Assembly (NCBI GenBank): GCA_017507905.1
Contig: JAFWAA010000023.1
Span: 1-48,407 of the forward strand
Length of the DNA stretch: 48,407 bases
Reading direction: 5' to 3'
Source: Clostridia bacterium
GTDB taxonomy: Bacteria > Bacillota > Clostridia > Oscillospirales > CAG-272
The stretch's first letter is position 1; every line of letters begins with the position of its first letter. Positions 10,325-42,534 of this stretch are shown here, one piece after another. The notes under the pieces are model-generated. The model saw only the letters and a program-made list of their open reading frames with translations. It did not search any database and was not told where the DNA came from. The position numbers were made by a program, and so were the translations under genes.

Positions 10325-12430
10325 ATGCCAAAGATCAACGTTTTACCCTTTGCCGTTGCGAATTTGATCGCCGCGGGCGAGGTGGTGGATCGACCGGCAT
10401 CGGTCATCAAGGAGCTGATGGAGAACTCCATCGACGCGGGAGCCACGCGCATCACCGTGGAGATCCAGAACGGCGGCGTTACCTTTATGCGCGTCACCGA
10501 CAACGGCTGCGGCATGGAGCCGGAGGACATTCCCACCGCCATTCGCCGCCACGCCACCAGCAAGATACGGAGTGCCGAGGATCTGGACGGCATTCTGACG
10601 CTGGGCTTCCGCGGTGAGGCACTTGCCGCGATCGCGTCGGTCTCGGATCTGCGCATCATCTCCAAGACCGAGGAGGCCGAGTTCGGCACGCTGCTTGAGG
10701 CGCACTGCGGCGAGATCGTGTCCCTTTGTGAGCAGGGCTGCTCCACGGGCACGTCGGTGATCGTGGAGAACCTCTTTGCCAACGTTCCCGCACGGCGGAA
10801 ATTCCTTAAGAAGGACGTTACCGAGTCCATGGCGGTCACCGCCAACGTGGAGAAGGTGGCGCTCTCCAATCCGCACATCGCCATGCGTCTGATCGTGGAC
10901 GGCAACGTGAAACTCGAAACGGCTGGCGACGGCAACCTCAAAAACACCATCTACTCGGTGTTTGGCAAGGAGTTTGCCTCGCGTATGATCGAGGTGGACA
11001 GCGAGAGCGAGGGGATCCGCGTGCGCGGATTCATCGGACGCACCGACAACGTCAAGGCCAACCGCAACCACCAGAATTTCTTCATCAACGGACGTTACGT
11101 CAAGAGCAAGACCGCCATGGCGGCTCTGGAGCAGGCGTACACCTCCTATCTTCCTCCCGAAAAATTTCCCGCCTGCGTGCTCTATCTTTCGCTCAACCCC
11201 GCACGCGTGGACGTCAACGTCCACCCGGCAAAGCTGGAGGTCAAGTTCTCCAACGAGAAGCCGGTCTTTGAGGCGGTCTATTACACCGTGCGCACGGCGC
11301 TGGAGTCCAATTCCGCGCGCCCCTCGGTGGAGCTTTACGTTGGAAAACGAAAGGGAAGCCCCCGTGTAGGCGGCAGAGTATCCGACGCCACCCTCCCCGT
11401 GGAGGACGGACGCCGCGAGTCGCTTTCCTCGCGTCAGCTTTCCTACAATCTCGCGGGAGAGCCCCTCTCCTACGATCTCAAGGGCGAGACCCAGCCCCAG
11501 CCGCAGATGCGAATGACGGCCGAGGAGTATCGCAATCTTTACGTGGATAACGCGCCCGCCCATAAGGCGCCTGCCATCGCGCAGAAGCAGCCCGACCTGA
11601 CCGTGCAAAACCGCGGCAACCTGCCCACGGTCACGGCCAAGGAAGCTGCCGCCCCCGTACAAGAGAAAACCGCACCCGTGCAGGAACCTGTTGCACCCGC
11701 GCAGGAAACTTCCATACCCGCGCAGGAAACTTCCATACCCGCGCAGGAGGCAACCGTACCCGTACAAGAGAAAACTGCACCCGTGCAGGAAGCCGCCGAG
11801 CCCATTCAGGAAAAACCTGCGCAGGAGGAGGCACCGCGTGAAATTCCTTCCTACCGCATCGTGGGAGAGGTCTTTCATTCCTACGTTATCGTCGAGTGCG
11901 AGGACAAGATGCTCCTCGTGGACAAGCACGCCGCGCACGAGCGCATTCTCTTTGAGCAGCTCAAGGCAGGACTTCATCAGGTCGCGCCCACCTCACAGCT
12001 TCTCATGCTTCCCGTGGAGGTCATGATGACCAGCGGCGAGGTAGAGGCCCTCAAGGAGTATGGCGACGAGCTGGCAAGGATCGGCTTCTTCCTGCGCTAC
12101 GCGCGCAACACGGTCTACGCCGACGCCATTCCCGAGGGCGTGGAGAGCGGCGCGGTCGCGGATATGCTTTCCACCATGGCGGGAAGGATCCTGAACGCCA
12201 CGGGCAGCGTCAAGCTCACGCGCGACATCATCTTTGAAAAGGCCCTCTATCAGGCGGCCTGCAAGGCGGCCATCAAGGCAGGACGGATCTACGCGGACGA
12301 GCATATTCAATGGATCGTGCAAAAGCTGATGGAGATCCCGGATATTACCTTCTGTCCGCACGGACGTCCCGTGGCGCTCGAGCTTTCGCACCGCACGCTG
12401 GACAACCAGTTTAACCGCACGGGATTTTAA
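10325..12430 (+). CDS. mutL: DNA mismatch repair endonuclease MutL with repetitive linker
   Basis: This 701-residue GHKL ATPase couples MutS to strand incision. The N-terminal ATPase shows VVDRPASVIKELMENSIDAG, DNGCGM and LGFRGEAL. The C-terminal domain has DKHAAHERILFE, matching the DQHA(X)2E(X)4E metal-binding motif of nicking MutLs, plus ACKAAIKAG and CPHGRP, so endonuclease activity is expected. The linker contains eight copies of a seven-residue P-(A/V)-Q-E repeat (11654-11821), unusual for MutL. The start is ATG 10325, not 10319, since AAAGGAG would be only 1 nt from the earlier ATG. Confidence 0.96.
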   Translation: MPKINVLPFAVANLIAAGEVVDRPASVIKELMENSIDAGATRITVEIQNGGVTFMRVTDNGCGMEPEDIPTAIRRHATSKIRSAEDLDGILTLGFRGEALAAIASVSDLRIISKTEEAEFGTLLEAHCGEIVSLCEQGCSTGTSVIVENLFANVPARRKFLKKDVTESMAVTANVEKVALSNPHIAMRLIVDGNVKLETAGDGNLKNTIYSVFGKEFASRMIEVDSESEGIRVRGFIGRTDNVKANRNHQNFFINGRYVKSKTAMAALEQAYTSYLPPEKFPACVLYLSLNPARVDVNVHPAKLEVKFSNEKPVFEAVYYTVRTALESNSARPSVELYVGKRKGSPRVGGRVSDATLPVEDGRRESLSSRQLSYNLAGEPLSYDLKGETQPQPQMRMTAEEYRNLYVDNAPAHKAPAIAQKQPDLTVQNRGNLPTVTAKEAAAPVQEKTAPVQEPVAPAQETSIPAQETSIPAQEATVPVQEKTAPVQEAAEPIQEKPAQEEAPREIPSYRIVGEVFHSYVIVECEDKMLLVDKHAAHERILFEQLKAGLHQVAPTSQLLMLPVEVMMTSGEVEALKEYGDELARIGFFLRYARNTVYADAIPEGVESGAVADMLSTMAGRILNATGSVKLTRDIIFEKALYQAACKAAIKAGRIYADEHIQWIVQKLMEIPDITFCPHGRPVALELSHRTLDNQFNRTGF
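11654..11821 (+). repeat. In-frame 21-bp tandem repeats in the mutL linker
   Basis: Eight consecutive 21-bp units encode heptapeptides such as PVQEKTA, PAQETSI (two identical in a row), PAQEATV and PIQEKPA. Two neighbouring units (from 11695 and 11716) are identical at the DNA level, so unit gain or loss by slippage is possible without frameshift. Confidence 0.95.
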
Positions 12431-12570
12431 CAAAGGGAAAAAAGTGCGCTTTTCCCGACAAGGGTTTTAACAAAGGGAAAAAGAGTGCGCTTTTTCCGAA
12501 AAGGATTTTAACGAAGGGGAGAGAGTACGCTTTTTCCAAAAGAGATTTTAACAAAGGGGAGAGAGTGCGC
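12425..12570 (+). repeat. Tandem ~40-bp repeat starting at the mutL stop codon
   Basis: About 3.6 units with periods of 40, 41 and 40 bp begin at TTTTAAC (12425, 12465, 12506, 12546); the first TTTTAA contains the mutL stop. Each unit carries an AAAGGGRRA purine run, then GTGCGC or GTACGC. Units 1 and 2 can fold into GGGAAAA/TTTTCCC-type hairpins. The last unit supplies the Shine-Dalgarno of the next gene. Confidence 0.93.
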
Positions 12571-25291: not shown

Positions 25292-25320
25292 TTGACAAAC
25301 AGGATCGGGTGTGCTATAAT
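25292..25320 (+). promoter_or_regulatory. Sigma-A promoter for the tRNA pair
   Basis: TTGACA 25292-25297, 17-bp spacer, TATAAT 25315-25320, 30 bp before tRNA-Thr. Confidence 0.93.
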
Positions 25321-25350: not shown

Positions 25351-25425
25351 GCTGGTGTGGCTCAATGGCAGAGCAGCTGATTTGTAATCAGCAGGTTGTT
25401 GGTTCGACTCCGATCACCAGCTCCA
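25351..25425 (+). tRNA. tRNA-Thr (anticodon TGT)
   Basis: A full cloverleaf with encoded CCA. Acceptor GCTGGTG pairs with CACCAGC, discriminator T, anticodon stem GCTGA/TCAGC with loop TTTGTAA (TGT at 25383-25385), and T-loop GGTTCGACTC. Confidence 0.96.
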
Positions 25426-25454: not shown

Positions 25455-25540
25455 GGGAGATTTCCCGAGTGGCCAAAGGGGGCAGACTGTAAATCTGTTG
25501 CGTCTTCGCTTCGGTGGTCCGAATCCACCATCTCCCACCA
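25455..25540 (+). tRNA. tRNA-Tyr (anticodon GTA)
   Basis: A class II tRNA with a long variable arm. Acceptor GGGAGAT/ATCTCCC, discriminator A, encoded CCA, anticodon loop CTGTAAA (GTA at 25489-25491). It lies 29 nt after tRNA-Thr in the same transcript. Confidence 0.95.
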
Positions 25541-25569
25541 AAAATCCGATGCGAAAGCATCGGATTTTT
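25541..25569 (+). terminator. Terminator of the tRNA operon
   Basis: A 12-bp perfect stem with a GAAA tetraloop (25541-25552 with 25557-25568) ends in a T-run, directly after the tRNA-Tyr CCA. Confidence 0.9.
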
Positions 25570-25572
25570 CAT

Positions 25573-25815
25573 TTGTGTCCGCAGGACACAACATCGTTTG
25601 CGTGCAACGCACGCAACATCATTTGAGCGTCAGCTCAACATCATTCCGCCGCAAGGCGGACACAAATGAACGAGGTTGAGGCGTTGCCTCAAATGAAGTT
25701 ACGGCTATGCCGTAAATGATGTTGCACCGTTGGTGCAAATGAAGTTGCCTTCGGCAAATGAAGTGATGCTTCGCATCAATGATGTTGCGCTTCGCGCAAA
25801 CGGAATTAGACCGTT
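25573..25815. repeat. Array of ten diverse hairpins with constant 6-nt spacers
   Basis: Consecutive perfect hairpins (stems 5-8 bp, loops 3-4 nt) lie at 25573-25591, 25598-25616, 25623-25638, 25645-25660, 25676-25692, 25699-25715, 25722-25738, 25745-25757, 25764-25778 and 25785-25799. Stem sequences all differ, but most arms begin TT and end AA. Spacers are exactly 6 nt: CATCGT, CATCAT, CATCAT in the left part, then ATGAAG, ATGATG, ATGAAG, ATGAAG, ATGATG in the right part. CATCAT is the reverse complement of ATGATG, so the array flips orientation near 25661-25675. A final CGG-AATTAGA-CCG hairpin closes it. No believable ORF is inside. Confidence 0.95.
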
Positions 25816-25837: not shown

Positions 25838-25866
25838 TTGAATTATTACCGAAAGTATGATATAAT
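25838..25866 (+). promoter_or_regulatory. Sigma-A promoter of the four-helix-bundle gene
   Basis: TTGAAT 25838-25843, 17-bp spacer, TATAAT 25861-25866, between the hairpin array and the gene. The array is therefore upstream of, not within, this transcript. Confidence 0.85.
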
Positions 25867-25890: not shown

Positions 25891-26259
25891 GTGAGAGAGG
25901 ATAAGCTCGGTGATCTTTCGATGGAATTATCCGTCGAGGTTTTGCAATTAACAAAAGAATTGCGTACAAAACATGAGAATGTAATCTCTAATCAAATCGG
26001 CAGAAGCGCAACGAGTATTTGCGCCAACATCGCTGAAAGCAAATATGCTCACGGTCGCGCCGACTTTATAGCAAAACTTGAAATTTCACTTAAAGAGACC
26101 AATGAAACGAGCAAATGGCTTGAACTGCTTTGGAAAAGTGATTATATTGATGAAACAAGATATAAAGCACTTGACCGTAAGTGCTCGACAATAAGATTTT
26201 TGCTTGTAACGTCGATTACAACAGCGAAAAAGAACCTCAATACAGCTAAGGAGTGCTAA
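25891..26259 (+). CDS. Four-helix-bundle protein (IVP / S23 family, related to bAvd)
   Basis: This 122-residue helical protein of the family first found inside 23S rRNA intervening sequences and related to the accessory protein bAvd of diversity-generating retroelements. The hallmark is SNQIGRSATSICANIAESKY followed by an acidic/aliphatic helix (FIAKLEISLKETNETSKWLE). The start is GTG 25891, preceded by AAGGCGG. The gene is AT-rich against a GC-rich chromosome and sits beside the hairpin array, which suggests it binds structured nucleic acid; that role is inferred. No reverse transcriptase is present. Its stop touches the next start (TAA then ATG). Confidence 0.88.
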   Translation: MREDKLGDLSMELSVEVLQLTKELRTKHENVISNQIGRSATSICANIAESKYAHGRADFIAKLEISLKETNETSKWLELLWKSDYIDETRYKALDRKCSTIRFLLVTSITTAKKNLNTAKEC

Positions 26260-26745
26260 ATGAAAAAAAGGTTTATCGCTTTTTATGATCTTTTCTGTTT
26301 TATAATCATAGCTGGCGTTATGTGGACGATTGCAATTATGATTTTGATTACCGGTCAATTTGGGGATTTTGATTGGTGTGTTGAAAATTGGTATTTGGTC
26401 CTTGTTTTTGCGATATGTGTGGCTGTGCCAGTAACGATTATGTTATCACTACAAAAAATTTATATTGACTTGTCGTGTGATAAAGTGAGTCTGTTTTATT
26501 TGGTAAACTTCAGAAAAAATGAAAAAGATTTACATAGCAATTGGATATTTTACCCGTCAGAAATTGAAAGCATTGATATAGTAAAGTTGTCAAATGAAGA
26601 AAAGAAGAAGTACACTTCGGCACGATTTGTGTTCAGTAGATATTTGAAAATAAACTTTAGATTCGGTCATTGCAAATATGTTTATGTTTCGCATTATGCT
26701 AATTGGCAAATTAAAAAAATAATTGAGATGTTAACAAAAACATAG
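26260..26745 (+). CDS. Two-TM membrane protein of unknown function
   Basis: This 161-residue protein is not recognised. Two TM helices near the N-terminus (FYDLFCFIIIAGVMWTIAI and WYLVLVFAICVAVPVTIML) are followed by a ~95-residue soluble domain with alternating hydrophobic strands (WIFYPSEIESIDIVKL, ARFVFSRYLKINFRFG, KYVYVSHYANWQIKKI). This layout is reminiscent of bacterial PH-like domain membrane proteins, but I cannot confirm it. The ATG directly follows the upstream stop, with AAGGAG inside that gene, so the two are translationally coupled. AT-rich codon use like its partner. Confidence 0.75.
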   Translation: MKKRFIAFYDLFCFIIIAGVMWTIAIMILITGQFGDFDWCVENWYLVLVFAICVAVPVTIMLSLQKIYIDLSCDKVSLFYLVNFRKNEKDLHSNWIFYPSEIESIDIVKLSNEEKKKYTSARFVFSRYLKINFRFGHCKYVYVSHYANWQIKKIIEMLTKT

Positions 26746-26815
26746 TCTACCCTCTGCAAAATCAAGGTGCATCTAAATCAGCAACACACGGCTTTGCATC
26801 TAAATCAGACACACA

Positions 26816-26859
26816 TCACAGAAAAAAGCACTTGCGAAAGCAAGTGCTTTTTTCTGTGA
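26816..26859. terminator. Terminator with a perfect 20-bp stem and GAAA loop
   Basis: Arms 26816-26835 and 26840-26859 pair completely around a GAAA tetraloop; an A6/T6 tract within the stem gives a T-run on either strand. It ends the two-gene cassette. Between the gene and this hairpin, TGCATCTAAATCAG occurs twice (26768 and 26795). Confidence 0.85.
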
Positions 26860-26862
26860 AAT

Positions 26863-26933
26863 TCGCCTTCGGCGAGTGAAATATGGCTTCGCATCAATGA
26901 TGTTGCGCTTCGCGCAAACGGAATTAGACCGTT
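26863..26933. repeat. Second, partial copy of the hairpin array end
   Basis: A TCGCC-TTC-GGCGA hairpin, a degenerate one, then 48 nt (26886-26933) identical to 25768-25815, including the GCATCA arm, ATGATG spacer, TTGCGC-TTC-GCGCAA hairpin and CGGAATTAGACCG end. It forms a direct repeat around the two-gene cassette. Confidence 0.95.
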
Positions 26934-32440: not shown

Positions 32441-32716
32441 AAATCCAAACCGATGAGGAAGAGGAGTAGCAGGCGTAAGCCCTTTTTCAGCGAGCCGCGG
32501 ACGGTGAAAGCGTGGCAAAGGAGCGGCTGTGAATGGACTTCCGAGGGCGGACCGAAGGGCGGCAACGCTTGGTAGGCTCCGACGGGGCGCGCGCCCGTTA
32601 CCCATAGCGCCGCATATGTCTCGTATGCGCAGAGGGGAAAAGCAAAGCTTTTCTAACCGGGTGGTACCGCGGATCTGTTGATTCGTCCCGATCATGATGC
32701 ATGATCGGGGCTTTTT
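32441..32716 (+). promoter_or_regulatory. T-box leader, tryptophan specific, with terminator
   Basis: A tRNA-sensing transcriptional switch. Stem I opens with GGAAG (32457-32461), has the AGTA bulge (32465-32468) and closes with CTTCC (32538-32542); opposite the AGTA lies GAATGGA, giving specifier TGG (Trp, 32534-32536) followed by A. The T-box bulge AACCGGGTGGTACCGCGG is at 32655-32672. The competing terminator is a 10-bp CCCGATCATG stem (32687-32709) with a T-run. Uncharged tRNA-Trp should favour read-through into the downstream transporter genes. This accounts for the gene-free stretch 32308-32845. Confidence 0.93.
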
Positions 32717-36787: not shown

Positions 36788-38311
36788 GTGAAAAATTCCA
36801 AATGGATCGTTCGCATTGCATTGCTGCTGCTCATCTGCACGATGGTGCTTAGTGCAGTTGCCTGCAATCAGACCCCCGCGGACGGACCGGGTACCGATCC
36901 CGTTGAGACCGATCCCGTGACCGACCCCGTCAATCCCGGAACCGACCCTGAGACAGACCCCGATACCAACCCCGAGACCGACCCCGAGACCGATCCCGAG
37001 GTGGACGCAAGCCTGCCCGAGCTTGACCTGGGCGGTACGGAATTCACCGTTCTGCTCCGCACGGGCGACGAGTACATCAACGACATCGGCATCATGAAGG
37101 TCTTTGAGAGCTCCTCGTCGATTGACCGCGCCGTTTATACGCGCAACAGAGCGGTGATGGATAAGTACAATATGATCTTCAACTTCAAGCAGACCGGATC
37201 CTTCTCCTCCGACGTGTCCACGGGACGTGCACGCCCCGATCAGTACGATATTCTCGTCGGCATGGGACGTGAGATCTTCAACGGCATCATTGCCGGCTAC
37301 TACGCCGATTGGAACGACCTTAAGTACGTTGACCTCACCCAGCCCTACTGGGCACAGAGCGCGATCGACCAGTGGTCCACTCCGGGTGGAAAGCTCTTTG
37401 CCATGAACGGCGACCTCTCCTATATGTCCGTGGGTAACTCTACGGCGATGTTCTTCAACAAGAGCATCATCAGCGAGGTTGGCGTAACCTCTCCCTATCA
37501 GCTGGTTTATGACGATGCATGGACGGTCGAGGCCTTCATTCAGATGGTCACCGACTGCGACAGCAACATGGACGGTGACGGCTCCGGCAACATCGCCAGC
37601 GACGGCTTCGGCTATGCTACGCAGGGCTGGCGCGGACCGATATACGCTACCTTCTGCGGCGGCGTTGGCGCACTGGAGAAGAAGAGTGACGGTACCTACA
37701 AGATCGGTATCGAAAAGGAGAGCGTTGCCGATGTCATTCAGGATTACATCGATATGATCGTTACCACCGACGTGGCACACTACGGCGAGCTTGGCGCAGT
37801 ACGTCAGGCCTTCCAGGGCGGCAGAGTTGCCTTCCTGGATGACAACGTGCAGTGCGCCGTCAGCTTCAGCGGCACGGCCCTCGACTTTGGCATTCTGCCT
37901 TGGCCCAAGGCTGCTTCGCGCGGCAATTACGTCAGCCTTGTCGGCTCGGGAACCAACACCTTTGCCGTTTACGGCAACATGAGTGAGGAGGCCATGGATG
38001 CATCCTCCGCCGTGCTTGAGGCAATGGCTCTCTACGGCAAGCATGAGGTTCTGGATTACTACTACGGCACCGTTCTTTCCTACCAGGGCACCAAGGATGA
38101 GGACTCTCTGGCTATGCTGGAGATCATTCACGATTCGCTCTTCTATGACTTTGCGCATTATGCTTGCTTCGGCGGCATTGGCGACGTGGTGAAGAGAGTC
38201 ATCGAGGATTCCGGAACCTACGGTGGAAGCATCTACACGGGTATTGCCCACCTCAGGGACCAGACCATGGTTGATCTTGAGGTATGGTATCTGCTTGACC
38301 TTGAGGAGTGA
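36788..38311 (+). CDS. Extracellular solute-binding lipoprotein, paralogue 1
   Basis: This 507-residue lipoprotein has a basic start (KNSKWIVRIA), signal peptide ending SAVAC, then a ~45-residue linker made of T-D-P, E-T-D-P and N-P-E-T-D-P repeats, then a large extracellular binding-protein-like domain (TEFTVLLRTGDEYINDIG ... GNSTAMFFNKSIISEVG ... AWTVEAFIQMVTDCD). The latter pattern resembles family 1 sugar-binding proteins. No permease is in the window. The start is GTG 36788, seven nt after AAGGAGG. The next gene is a close paralogue, indicating tandem duplication. Confidence 0.85.
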   Translation: MKNSKWIVRIALLLLICTMVLSAVACNQTPADGPGTDPVETDPVTDPVNPGTDPETDPDTNPETDPETDPEVDASLPELDLGGTEFTVLLRTGDEYINDIGIMKVFESSSSIDRAVYTRNRAVMDKYNMIFNFKQTGSFSSDVSTGRARPDQYDILVGMGREIFNGIIAGYYADWNDLKYVDLTQPYWAQSAIDQWSTPGGKLFAMNGDLSYMSVGNSTAMFFNKSIISEVGVTSPYQLVYDDAWTVEAFIQMVTDCDSNMDGDGSGNIASDGFGYATQGWRGPIYATFCGGVGALEKKSDGTYKIGIEKESVADVIQDYIDMIVTTDVAHYGELGAVRQAFQGGRVAFLDDNVQCAVSFSGTALDFGILPWPKAASRGNYVSLVGSGTNTFAVYGNMSEEAMDASSAVLEAMALYGKHEVLDYYYGTVLSYQGTKDEDSLAMLEIIHDSLFYDFAHYACFGGIGDVVKRVIEDSGTYGGSIYTGIAHLRDQTMVDLEVWYLLDLEE

Positions 38312-38437: not shown

Positions 38438-39943
38438 ATGAAAACAAAAACTTCCCTTCGCATTTTCCTTTTCCTGCTTTGTGCAGCTTGCGTCCTGCCT
38501 CTCGTGGGATGCCAGACCACGCCCGATCCCGTGGAGACCGATCCCGTGACCGATCCTGTGACCGATCCTGCGACCGACCCCGAGACCGATCCCGACAGCA
38601 ACCCCGAAACCGATCCCGAGACCGACCCCGAGGACGAGTATGTCCTGCCCGAGCTTAACATGGGCGGCAAGGAGTTTACCGTTCTGCTCCGCACGGGCGA
38701 CGAGTACGTCAACGATATTGGCATCATGAAGGTCTTTCAGAGCTCCTCGTCGATCGACCGCGCCGTTTATACGCGCAACAAAGCGGTGATGGATCAGTAC
38801 AGCATGATCTTCAACTTCAAGCAGACCGGATCCTTTGCGGAAGACGTATCCGCGGGACGTGCGCGCCCCGATCAGTACGGCATTCTCGTCGGCCACGGCC
38901 GCGAGATCTTCAGCGGCATTGTTGCCGGCTACTACGCCGATTGGAACAACCTTGAGCACGTTGACCTCACGCAGTCCTACTGGGCACAGAGTGCGATCGA
39001 GCAGTGGTCCACTCCCGCAGGCAAGGTCTTTGCCATGAACGGCGACCTTTCCTATATGTCCATCGGTAACGCTACGGCAATGTTTTTCAACAAGAGCATC
39101 ATCGAGGAGGTCGGCGTGACCTCTCCCTATCAGTTGGTTTATGACGATGCATGGACGGTCGAGGCCTTCATTCAGATGGTCACCGACTGCGACAGCAACC
39201 TGGACGGAGACGGCTCCGGTAGTGCGCTGACCGACACCTTCGGTTATGCAACCGAGCGTTGGCGCGGACCCGGCTTCGTTACCTTCTGCGGCGGCGTTGG
39301 CGCGCTGGAGAAGAAGAACGATGGCACCTACAAGATCGGCATCGCCAAGGAGAGCGTTGCCGACGTGATCCAGGATTACATTGATATGATCATGACCACT
39401 GACGTTGCCCTCTACGGCTCGCTCGGTGACACCCGTAACGCCTTCCAGTCCGGACGCGCTGCCTTCCTGGATGACAACGTCAAGTGCGCGGTCAACTTCA
39501 GCGGCACGGCCCTCGACTTTGGCATTCTGCCTTGGCCCAAGGCCTCCACGCGCGGCGATTACGTCAGCCCCGTAGGCTCGGGAACCAACACCTTTGCCGT
39601 TTACGGCAACATGAGCGAGCAGGCGATGAAGGAATCCTCCGCCGTGCTTGAGGCGATGGCTCTCTACGGTCAGCGTGACGTTCTGGACTACTACTACGGC
39701 ACCGTTCTTTCCTACCAGGGAACCAAGGACGAGGATTCTCTGGCGATGATGAAGATGATCCACGACGCCCTTTTCTACGATTTCGCGGCTTATTCCAGCT
39801 TCGGCGGAATCGCTGACGTTGTGCAGAGAGTCATTGAGGACTCCGGAACGTACGGTGGAAATATCTACACGGCAATTTCTCACCTCGAGGAGCAGACCAT
39901 GGTCGATCTTGAACTGTGGTATCTGCTTGACCTTGAGGAGTGA
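38438..39943 (+). CDS. Extracellular solute-binding lipoprotein, paralogue 2
   Basis: This 501-residue protein is nearly identical in organisation to the preceding gene: signal peptide ending LPLVGC, T-D-P/E-T-D-P linker, and the same binding domain (KEFTVLLRTGDEYVNDIG ... GNATAMFFNKSIIEEVG ... DLELWYLLDLEE). Differences cluster in the linker and around SGSALTDTFGYATERW, where a binding specificity change is possible. ATG 38438 rather than 38435 is chosen on SD spacing (CGGAGG). No own promoter was seen, so it probably depends on the upstream one. Confidence 0.85.
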   Translation: MKTKTSLRIFLFLLCAACVLPLVGCQTTPDPVETDPVTDPVTDPATDPETDPDSNPETDPETDPEDEYVLPELNMGGKEFTVLLRTGDEYVNDIGIMKVFQSSSSIDRAVYTRNKAVMDQYSMIFNFKQTGSFAEDVSAGRARPDQYGILVGHGREIFSGIVAGYYADWNNLEHVDLTQSYWAQSAIEQWSTPAGKVFAMNGDLSYMSIGNATAMFFNKSIIEEVGVTSPYQLVYDDAWTVEAFIQMVTDCDSNLDGDGSGSALTDTFGYATERWRGPGFVTFCGGVGALEKKNDGTYKIGIAKESVADVIQDYIDMIMTTDVALYGSLGDTRNAFQSGRAAFLDDNVKCAVNFSGTALDFGILPWPKASTRGDYVSPVGSGTNTFAVYGNMSEQAMKESSAVLEAMALYGQRDVLDYYYGTVLSYQGTKDEDSLAMMKMIHDALFYDFAAYSSFGGIADVVQRVIEDSGTYGGNIYTAISHLEEQTMVDLELWYLLDLEE

Positions 39944-40043: not shown

Positions 40044-41183
40044 ATGAACAAAAAGCTTTCCTTTCGTATTCTGCTTTTCCTGCTTTGCGCAGCTCTCATG
40101 CTGCCGCTCGTGGGATGCCAGACCACACCCGACCCCGTGGAGACCGATCCCGTGACCGATCCCGTGACCGATCCTGCGACCGATCCCAAAACCGACCCCG
40201 AAACTGCCCCCGAAACTGACCCCGAGACCGAGCCCGAGACCGAGCCCGAGGACAAGGACACCATGTGGACCTACACGCATGAGGCGGGCGGAATGCTGGT
40301 GCGCAACATCACGATCAAGACGGACAAGGGCGGCGATCCCATAGAGATCATTCAAGCAACGGATATCCACGTCAATTACCTCAACGACCGAGACCTCGCG
40401 GGAGATCAGGACGTGATCAATATCGCCAATTCCTATTGGCTGGCCAACGGCGCTTCCTTGCCCGGAATTCAGCGCGTGCTCAACCTGGCCAAGGACGCCG
40501 ATCAGTTGGTCGTTACGGGCGACCTGATGAGCTATATCGGCTACGGCTGCCTGGAGTTTTTGGATGAGCACCTGTTTACCGACGAATTTGAGGGCCGCAT
40601 CATGGCGTCGCTCGGTAACCACGAGACTTATGCCGGCCGATCGGGAACCGAGGCCGAGGTCAAGGCGTACATCGAGCGCATCGCACAGGTCTGGCCGAAC
40701 GATCCCACGTACAGCTCTAAGGTGCTTGGCGAGAAGGTGATGCTCATTCAGATGGACAATGCGAGCAGCACTGACATTCCCGGTGTGGGCACTTGCTTCT
40801 ACCAGGAGCAGGTCAGCCTCCTGCGTGCGGATCTGGAGACAGCGAGAGAAAAGGGCTACGTGGTGCTGCTGTTCTATCATATTCCGATCGCTACGGGAAA
40901 TCCGAAGGACTACCGCAGCATCTCGCCCTATAACGGTGAGCAGGCCAACTTCTATTCGAGCGGCGTAGGACGCTATTCCACGGGCGCATCCAAGGAGATC
41001 TACACGCTGATCACGGAGAACGCCGACATCATCAAGGGTGCCTTCTGCGGCCACGTGCACAACGACTACTACACCAACATCAAGGGCACGGGTCAGAACG
41101 GCACGGGTCACCTGATCCCGCAGTACATCGTGCGTTGCAATCCCTACGAAAACGGACATACGTTCCGCATCATCGTGGAATAA
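40044..41183 (+). CDS. Secreted calcineurin-like phosphoesterase lipoprotein 1
   Basis: This 379-residue lipoprotein has signal peptide ending LPLVGC and a T-D-P/E-P-E repeat linker to about residue 70, followed by a metallophosphatase domain. The metal ligands are all visible: QATDIHVNY (DxH), VVTGDLM (GD), SLGNHET (GNHE), LLFYHIPI (His) and CGHVHND (GHxH). Such enzymes hydrolyse phosphomonoesters or diesters outside the cell. The shared export module and clustering with binding proteins suggest a joint nutrient-scavenging role. Confidence 0.88.
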   Translation: MNKKLSFRILLFLLCAALMLPLVGCQTTPDPVETDPVTDPVTDPATDPKTDPETAPETDPETEPETEPEDKDTMWTYTHEAGGMLVRNITIKTDKGGDPIEIIQATDIHVNYLNDRDLAGDQDVINIANSYWLANGASLPGIQRVLNLAKDADQLVVTGDLMSYIGYGCLEFLDEHLFTDEFEGRIMASLGNHETYAGRSGTEAEVKAYIERIAQVWPNDPTYSSKVLGEKVMLIQMDNASSTDIPGVGTCFYQEQVSLLRADLETAREKGYVVLLFYHIPIATGNPKDYRSISPYNGEQANFYSSGVGRYSTGASKEIYTLITENADIIKGAFCGHVHNDYYTNIKGTGQNGTGHLIPQYIVRCNPYENGHTFRIIVE

Positions 41184-41382: not shown

Positions 41383-42534
41383 ATGAACCGTTTGCCTATG
41401 TTCCGTCTTCTGCTGCTCCTGCTTTGTGCAGCCTTTGTTCTGCCGCTTGTGGGATGCCAGACCACGCCCGATCCCGTGGAGACCGATCCCGTGACCGATC
41501 CCGTGACCGATCCTGCGACCGATCCTGCAACCGATCCTGCGACCGATCCCGAGACCGATCCTGCAACCGAGCCTGAGACGGAGCCCGAGACCGAGCCCGT
41601 GGACACCATGTGGACCTACGTTCACGAGAAGAGCGGCGTGCTCACGCGCGAGATCACCATTCAGTCGGGCAAGGGCGGATCCCCTGTTGAGATCATTCAG
41701 ATCTCGGATATTCACTTCAATTACTGCAACGCGCAGGATTTTGAGGAGAAGAATCCCGCAATCATGAGCACCTATGAGTACCGGAAATGGCTTGCAAACG
41801 GAGAATCCGTGTCGAACGCGAAACGGTGTCTCAGCCATGCCAAAGAGGCCGATATGCTGGTCTTGACCGGTGACACGTTGGACTACCTTTCTCACGGCTG
41901 TATTGAGCTGACGCAAAAAAATCTGCTTGAGCCATGGAAGGACGCGATCCTGGCCTCTCCCGGAAACCACGAGCCGCTGCGGCAGATGCAGGGGGTGGTC
42001 GAGGATACGACCTCGCTGCAATCCCGTCAGGATCTTTTGCAGTCGATCTGGCCTCACGATCTGCATTATGCCTCCTTCGTGCTGAAGGGCAAGGTCATGC
42101 TGATCCAGTTGGATAATGCCAGCATGTGCGAGGAGGGTGGCTCTGCCTTCCTGCAAGAGCAGATCGAGCCCTTCAAGGCTGATCTTGCGAAGGCCAGAGA
42201 AAAGGGCTACGTGGTGCTTCTGTTCTACCACATCCCGATCGCTACGGGAAATCCCGAGGATTACCGCAGCATCTCGCCTAACAACGGGGATCAGGTCAAC
42301 TTCTATTCGAGCGGCGTAGGACGCTACTCCAAGGGCGCGTCCAAGGAGATCTACACACTGATCACGGACAACGCCGACATCATCAAGGGCACCTTCTGCG
42401 GCCACGTGCACAACGACTACTACACCAACATCAAGGGCACGGGTCAGAACGGCACGGGTCACTTGATCCCGCAGTATATTATGACTGCCAGTGCGTATCA
42501 GCAAGGCCATATTTTCCGCATCATCGTGGAGTGA
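41383..42534 (+). CDS. Secreted calcineurin-like phosphoesterase lipoprotein 2
   Basis: This 383-residue paralogue of the preceding gene has signal peptide ending LPLVGC, then V-E-T-D-P, V-T-D-P and A-T-D-P repeats. The ligands are QISDIHFNY (DxH), VLTGDTL (GD), SPGNHEP (GNHE), LLFYHIPI and CGHVHND. The C-terminal third is nearly identical to paralogue 1 and the middle diverges, hinting at different substrates. ATG 41383 has AAAGGAAG upstream. It has its own promoter. Confidence 0.88.
   Translation: MNRLPMFRLLLLLLCAAFVLPLVGCQTTPDPVETDPVTDPVTDPATDPATDPATDPETDPATEPETEPETEPVDTMWTYVHEKSGVLTREITIQSGKGGSPVEIIQISDIHFNYCNAQDFEEKNPAIMSTYEYRKWLANGESVSNAKRCLSHAKEADMLVLTGDTLDYLSHGCIELTQKNLLEPWKDAILASPGNHEPLRQMQGVVEDTTSLQSRQDLLQSIWPHDLHYASFVLKGKVMLIQLDNASMCEEGGSAFLQEQIEPFKADLAKAREKGYVVLLFYHIPIATGNPEDYRSISPNNGDQVNFYSSGVGRYSKGASKEIYTLITDNADIIKGTFCGHVHNDYYTNIKGTGQNGTGHLIPQYIMTASAYQQGHIFRIIVE

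Follow-up and report, generated by a model that had tools for sequence, protein, structure and literature searches.

A hairpin array with inverted linkers at the front of a tRNA-linked cassette in gut Clostridia

The locus and its hairpin array

The window analysed here is the whole of a 48,407-nucleotide stretch of DNA from a Clostridia bacterium (contig JAFWAA010000023.1), and the array lies within it behind two tRNA genes, the features listed in this paragraph all being on the + strand. A pattern scan finds a promoter-like site for the tRNAs (TTGACA-17-TATAAT, 12/12) at 25292–25320, followed by tRNA-Thr(TGT) at 25351–25425 (ARAGORN and Rfam) and tRNA-Tyr(GTA) at 25455–25540 (ARAGORN), whose CCA end is the probable insertion point, as this site holds different sequences in sister species. 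A terminator hairpin of 13 bp with a T-run (25540–25569) comes next, which we read as the first part of a cassette since it differs between elements at one tRNA and also precedes internal cassettes. Beyond the array a second promoter-like site (TTGAAT-17-TATAAT, 25838–25866, pattern scan) stands in front of an IVP gene of 122 aa (25891–26259; profile matches to PF05635 and TIGR02436) and a cargo ORF of 161 aa (26260–26745) without a Pfam or PADLOC match. The cargo is followed at 26743–26819 by an apparent remnant of a cassette 3′ module, M2, with two copies of GCATCTAAATCAG, a reading that draws on its sequence and on its repetition in sister genomes. By eye, a hairpin with a T-run at 26820–26855 reads as the terminator belonging to another cassette, now truncated, and 26856–26933 as what is left of a GTGAAAT-type array, joined to an ATGATG-type right end; 26886–26933 is a perfect 48-bp repeat of 25768–25815, the right end of the window array.

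The window also holds, within long ORFs, runs of a 12-bp unit (GAGACCGAYCCC-like) of about 8–10 copies each (36905–37000, 38534–38632, 40140–40250 and 41479–41599), a 40-bp repeat of 3.7 copies between ORFs (12422–12570) and a T-box leader RNA (32444–32693, 103 bits).

The window IVP protein matches PF05635 (23S_rRNA_IVP) with E 3.9e-26 (91.8 bits against a cut-off of 33.8) and TIGR02436 (four helix bundle protein) with E 5.1e-28 (97.5 bits against a cut-off of 24). Among solved structures its relatives are 2RLD (E 1.4e-22) and, weakly, 2GSC (E 0.24), both of them five-chain depositions. PADLOC matches neither this protein nor the cargo ORF, and a defence label for the two was dropped on that ground. 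The protein family is common: 53 of the 148 class genomes sampled contain it, as do 72 of 118 in the sample of the taxonomic family. Four IVP matches occur in the window's own genome, of which one is cut at a contig end and the three readable ones have the linkers ATGAWG, ATTCCAT and ATATCAC.

The array consists of ten perfect hairpins in 227 bp (25573–25799), with stems of 5–8 bp and loops of 3–4 nt, much as the first-pass annotation of this DNA had described it. Its further rules need amendment. Spacers of exactly 6 nt throughout had been claimed, and this is so for eight of the nine, the exception being the 15 nt at 25661–25675. All spacers had been given as ATGAAG or ATGATG, which is right for the five between hairpins 5–10 of the right half-array (25676–25799; ATGAAG 25693–25698, ATGATG 25716–25721, ATGAAG 25739–25744, ATGAAG 25758–25763 and ATGATG 25779–25784) and wrong for the three between hairpins 1–4 of the left (25573–25660; CATCGT 25592–25597, CATCAT 25617–25622 and CATCAT 25639–25644), which are their reverse complement. 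Because the linker orientation flips in this way from CATCRT to ATGAWG, a flip that had been missed, the array is an inverted pair of half-arrays around a 15-nt centre (25661–25675). Stems starting with TT and ending with AA make up eight of the ten, hairpins 4 (TCCGCC/GGCGGA) and 9 (TGATGC/GCATCA) having only the outer T and A. The right half-array exceeds by two units the four that are common among relatives.

The centre contains part of a second partner for the 5′ arm of hairpin 1, an additional copy with which it pairs at 15 of 15 positions (25568–25582 with 25656–25670). This arm has, then, alternative partners, either its own 3′ arm or the central copy, and by eye the same arrangement recurs with changed letters at three other loci (L020, L024 and L036).

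When the 227 bases were shuffled 1000 times with dinucleotides preserved, the hairpins numbered 0.9 on average and at most 4, against the 10 observed, and spacers of six nt averaged 0.004 and never exceeded one, against 8 observed. Among 964 sliding windows, none clear of the array region exceeds 4 hairpins, and RNA folding of 25570–25805 gives z = −6.55. With a terminator on one side of the array and a promoter-like site on the other, neither neighbour need transcribe it, a point that we count against the explanation preferred below. The terminator-like hairpin at 25540–25569 (+), together with three array hairpins that meet a loose terminator rule on the − strand, might suggest that ordinary selection has built a row of weak terminators insulating the genes behind tRNA operons. 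However, on the + strand the ten array hairpins include no terminator-like one, and the conservation of the linkers, their inversion and the linkage to the IVP gene would all be left unexplained, and we regard this account as very improbable.

Covariation and distribution in relatives

Alignment A1 comprises 25 of 32 arrays found by pattern, the window array, which is two units longer, being among the seven left out. In these 25 arrays the local hairpins pair in 91.4% of cells, and 20 of 41 stem pairs have changed on both sides, a number that none of 500 shuffles reaches and that compares with a maximum of 9 in slid controls. Two hairpins are less well paired in A1 (upper hairpin 3, 54.7%, and reference hairpin 7, 80%), for which misalignment is partly responsible. 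These two-sided changes bear out the earlier proposal that selection acts on structure. Whole stems differ between loci at one position while the same stems turn up at other positions, and 30 arrays contain 36 distinct stems of at least 5 bp. End-to-end folding is found for 167 of 230 segments, a count in which the left half, unparsed in 4 of the 30 arrays, was scored as a miss. A ladder of linker–linker pairs proposed by RNAalifold pairs in 97.4% of cells, with both-sided changes in only 3 of 23 pairs, a level reached by 3 of 500 shuffles; the ladder pairing thus rests mainly on the inverted repeat, and we rejected it.

Mismatches within the stems bear on the form in which the array acts. There are 304 distinct hairpins bounded by linkers, 266 of them perfect and 38 with one mismatch, and among these single mismatches G.T outnumbers A.C by 20 to 3 (p 0.0005), the pattern that folding of the sense strand would give. 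In weaker arrays, another 96 hairpins gave 6 G.T and 4 A.C, and a looser mismatch scan 110 and 86 (p 0.10); RNA-type tetraloops show no strand bias (37 versus 37 of 179 four-nt loops). The mismatch pattern favours a folded sense strand, short of proof.

One alternative reading is a structured non-coding RNA resembling Gut-1 (RF01706), which would be made by read-through from the tRNA operon or from a promoter of its own and would regulate IVP or tRNA expression, with the IVP as an RNA-binding partner and any mobility incidental. The strict mismatch count and the folding score would both suit such an RNA, as would two loci (L003 and L004) at which the array ends near the IVP start and leaves scant space for a promoter. 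Moreover, halves of sister arrays of the GTGATAT/GTGAAAT type score above the Gut-1 gathering threshold (L031, L147, L148 and L150). However, at L031, L147, L148 and L165 Gut-1 matches, some of them below the gathering score, fall on both strands of one array, which is not what a one-strand RNA would give, and an Rfam scan of the window array, which is of the ATGATG type, has no Gut-1 hit at gathering score. With the differences between sister species and the unrelated cargo described below also against it, we consider this RNA reading unlikely.

To follow the array beyond the window we used IVP genes as anchors. A similarity search with the window IVP protein gave 80 loci, mostly, by their titles, from metagenome-assembled gut Clostridia, and these were combined with class and family samples (the best-scoring IVP rows plus 40 and 60 picked by hand), loci of the window's own genome and loci selected for tRNA-Tyr. 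The set is accordingly non-random; it began as 253 IVP hits and stood at 237 after removal of duplicates and of loci with less than 300 nt upstream. Upstream of 179 of the 237 clostridial IVP genes we see a 7-mer in at least 6 copies, in inverted orientation to the left and in direct orientation to the right, against 8 of 237 shuffles that preserved base composition only and were scored under this loose rule, not the stricter one. Two of the best Pfam-scoring IVPs of the class sample, which by eye have no array (L097–L110), nevertheless score 6 and 7 in the automatic search (L107 and L110), so the 179 include false positives. The stricter array rule retains 118 of 237 loci, and the commonest count among them is four copies on the left and four on the right (26 of 118).

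A tRNA in the sense orientation lies within 450 nt at 127 of the 237 IVP loci, the other 110 being without one, and an antisense tRNA within this distance is found at none of the 237. By sample, the sense tRNA is present at 58 of 78 loci similar to the window IVP, 45 of 85 from the family, 19 of 68 from the class, 2 of 3 from the window's own genome and all 3 selected for tRNA-Tyr; at a limit of 470 nt the first figure is 59 of the 78 loci with at least 250 nt upstream. Over the loci similar to the window IVP the tRNAs represent 17 amino acids and 25 anticodons. The order tRNA-Arg, GTGATAT-type array, IVP is also seen in a human-faecal contig deposited as phage (L344). At three loci (L012, L019 and L047) the array precedes cargo without an IVP; we count this against the preferred explanation, and the presence of arrays before unrelated cargo also speaks against a Gut-1-like regulator.

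The first-pass annotation had named absence of such arrays elsewhere, or stems that do not covary, as the marks of local noise. Both points were examined: many arrays are present in other genomes, the layout recurring among relatives and across further genera of both family and class, and the stems covary. Noise or an expansion private to this genome is thus hardly credible.

Linker class was also placed on a FastTree phylogeny of the IVP proteins from 117 of the 118 strict-rule loci, 21 of which have no class label and in which 52 of 114 inner branches are unresolved. The 96 labelled rows need 16 changes of linker class, with a minimum of 11 and a shuffled mean of 55.9, and none of 200 shuffles is as low; leaving out the 36 ATGAWG-type rows gives 15 changes. 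This shows that linker type follows the IVP clade and that array and gene travel together. Such travelling together is expected both from recognition and from linkage alone, so the tree does not prove recognition.

Exchange at tRNA ends and on plasmids

Depending on the sister species, the same tRNA-Tyr is followed by a GTGAAAT, GTGATAT, GTGATGT, ATGATATA or TGATG array, with or without an IVP gene, or by no array (19 loci compared, several of them cut by contig ends). The presence of different arrays at one site in sister species again argues against a Gut-1-like RNA. Two loci (L154 and L166) share a downstream gene behind different arrays, and two others (L156 and L160) share a downstream gene with about 1.4 kb present in one and absent from the other; this differing segment is array-free, which we count against the preferred explanation. 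The window's own array type yielded no clean empty allele.

At four loci (L019, L031, L047 and L165) two or three cassettes stand in a row after one tRNA, and every one of them has a terminator hairpin, an array and a gene to itself. L175 has two tandem cassettes at the start of its contig, with arrays that are 96% identical over 269 nt and cargo DNA without a blastn hit. Many of the cassettes that were read end in a 3′ module, M1, whose stem has by eye changed on both sides (GTTGCAC/GTGCAAC and GTTAAAAG/CTTTTAAC). A short M1 pattern with one mismatch allowed occurs in 11 of 35 genus genomes, one of which (G157) has a match that looks coding by eye, and not in G000; a reversed control pattern gave 2 matches. 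In L165 (2790–2876, 3715–3801 and 4965–5052), L019, L020, L023 and L177, M1 (CAAGCATGG...CCAAGGG) is followed by two direct copies of the short M2, and the M1 modules of L165, L019 and L020 have no convincing Rfam match.

After a number of tRNAs we see by eye a terminator hairpin and then an inverted piece of the tRNA 3′ part (L149, L156, L158 and L162, all tRNA-Tyr, and L005, L037, L061, L070, L072, L073 and L075). In L005, L037, L070, L072, L073 and L075 the tRNA 3′ end also recurs beyond this as another direct copy. By eye these look like another kind of unit at tRNA ends.

A genome-wide search for transposition enzymes covered the reverse transcriptase (PF00078) and Y1 transposase (PF01797) families. 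Neither has a match in G000, a 92% complete draft; among the 35 genus drafts the former is matched in 8 and not in 27, and the latter in 6 and not in 29, absence in drafts not being final. Origins from RAYT/REP or from a reverse transcriptase were rejected, these families being missing from G000 and from most genus drafts. This result also bears on a reading in which the array is a site used at the DNA level for recombination or protein binding, along the lines of a REP pair or of attC in its folded form, with a host recombinase acting in trans and the units serving also as homology for exchange. The inverted symmetry of the linkers, the chimeric array and perfect 48-bp repeat in the window, the tandem cassettes with varied cargo and the lack of strand bias in the tetraloops are all in keeping with such a site. 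The excess of G.T over A.C in the strict count is not, nor are the missing Y1 transposase of G000 and most of its genus, and our estimate is that this reading is quite unlikely.

IVP genes are also found on plasmids, and from a longer list of records we examined 20 such loci (15 Cyanobacteriota, 2 Chloroflexota and one each from Spirochaetota, Bacteroidota and Clostridia), several of which are kin (L353, L354 and L355; L359 and L360). By eye, none of the 20 has a hairpin array within 260 nt upstream. Inverted heptamers, scored as a heptamer with two or more copies in the 250 nt upstream and two or more of its reverse complement in the 200 nt downstream, flank the IVP in 15 of the 20 (13 of the 15 cyanobacterial loci and 2 of the 5 others); controls gave 1 of 400 shuffles and 0 of 317 placements in the window.

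On two Nostoc plasmids the extent of the unit can be read from relatives. In Nostoc sp. C052 (L352) the insert occupies 623–1053, homology to L363, L364 and L365 ending at 621–622 and resuming at 1054, and the relatives have 197–198 nt there. In L353 the insert at 643–1108 takes the position of 328 nt of a cytosine methyltransferase gene in L366 and L367. Alleles with and without the unit thus exist on Nostoc plasmids, and the IVP gene with its inverted heptamers is a discrete insert, of 431–466 bp, which appears from the relatives to have replaced target DNA.

Several plasmid and other loci have neighbours of interest by annotation. In Nostoc sp. TCL26-01 and Anabaena cylindrica PCC 7122 the plasmid-borne IVP has cas2 on one side and cas1 on the other (L357 and L362). 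In L359 and L360 it lies between a DUF1156 gene and a Swt1-HEPN gene, and an interrupted IVP frame lies between hsdS and hsdR in L341. On Planktothrix agardhii plasmids (L348 and hits H61 and H62) it adjoins a helicase gene annotated as DISARM drmD in kin records, and also a BREX pglX or MmeI gene. In L342 and L345 the region upstream of the IVP contains long degenerate tandem repeats, which are GGAAAGT-like in Treponema saccharophilum and comprise about 14 copies of TTAGTGA in Bernardetia.

Interpretation and comparison with known systems

The array forms the front part of a cassette that is widespread and whose usual protein, itself common, is poorly understood. The cassette is a unit of fixed order with inverted linkers and covarying hairpins; roughly half of the loci have a tRNA address, and a single site can hold different elements. 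We propose, with a probability of roughly 60%, that a small mobile cassette, which encodes an IVP and is lodged behind tRNA CCA ends, has in this array its 5′ module for recognition and folding. In this model the cassette would run from its own terminator hairpin through the inverted hairpin array, often with about four linkers each way, to a promoter, the IVP and/or cargo and sometimes a conserved 3′ module. The IVP may bind the linker motif of its own array, the hairpins presumably presenting the linkers at a fixed spacing, and the array would act in folded form, more likely as the sense single strand, so as to mark the unit for copying or insertion.

A wider and more tentative proposal, which we hold to be possible at somewhat less than even odds, is that PF05635 proteins define a class of mobile units across phyla that has no recognised transposase and is bounded by clade-specific inverted arrays of 6–8-nt motifs, about four copies a side, the unit perhaps moving as a single strand, folded and bound by a ring of IVP. 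Gut Clostridia would have gained hairpins between the motifs, tRNA CCA sites and gene-cassette cargo, and Gut-1 RNA and some of the cyanobacterial heptameric repeats would be parts of the same class. If true, three orphans would find a home, namely the IVP/four-helix-bundle genes, Gut-1 RNA and some short inverted heptamer repeats; the tRNA ends of gut bacteria would host a cassette-carrying system without a known recombinase; and whether each IVP binds only its own linker would become a directly testable question.

The array had been described as a repeat that matches no named class, neither CRISPR nor REP/BIME. Its reading as a free-standing class is not supported, the array being the 5′ part of a tRNA-linked cassette that usually has an IVP, and sister-type halves match Gut-1 RF01706. 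The two exclusions hold for the defining features that were compared. In CRISPR identical repeats alternate with unique spacers, whereas here the hairpins vary, as the stem count above shows, and the spacers are fixed, which is the reverse pattern. REP/BIME elements with their RAYT are small hairpins beside a short fixed motif, arranged as inverted pairs; in the arrays described here the stems vary while the linker is fixed, there is a positional link to the IVP, and the Y1 transposase is missing from G000 and from 29 of 35 genus genomes.

Intervening sequences of 23S rRNA consist of an IVP reading frame with complementary flanks. The units here differ in lying behind tRNA genes or between protein genes and in having short tandem motifs, and in Clostridia both half-arrays are upstream of the IVP. 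The window locus is no 23S rRNA insertion, since it lies behind tRNA-Tyr and Rfam finds no rRNA in the window. Integron cassettes with attC are tandem, varied small genes, each with a foldable site, and the cassettes here are likewise tandem, with varied small genes and a foldable site each; they differ in that the site precedes the gene, in having their own terminator and promoter-like site, and in starting at a tRNA.

PF05635 has been noted as resembling Avd, the accessory protein of DGRs (PMC10053308); the reverse transcriptase of a DGR has no match in G000 or in 27 of the 35 genus genomes. The published account of Gut-1 presents a non-coding RNA with no affiliation to mRNAs, known only from human gut metagenomes (Weinberg et al. 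2010, PMC2864571), and the portions of that description available to us mention no inverted partner, tRNA, IVP or cassette, unlike the arrays here. The heptameric simple repeats of Xanthomonas and Nostoc have 7-nt units with a clear preference for four copies, and one Xanthomonas genome has 70 convergent inverted pairs (Rehm et al. 2015, PMC4692102). As far as the accessible text of that paper extends, they are treated as quadruplex repeats, hairpins between the units are not described, and the terms 23S, S23 and four helix bundle are absent, with no link to an IVP. The papers searched, in the parts open to us and with bioRxiv outside the scope, likewise yielded no link of IVP genes to such arrays. 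Within this limited coverage of the literature we rate the assembled system as new in kind, its parts, namely Gut-1, the heptamer repeats and PF05635, having been described apart before.
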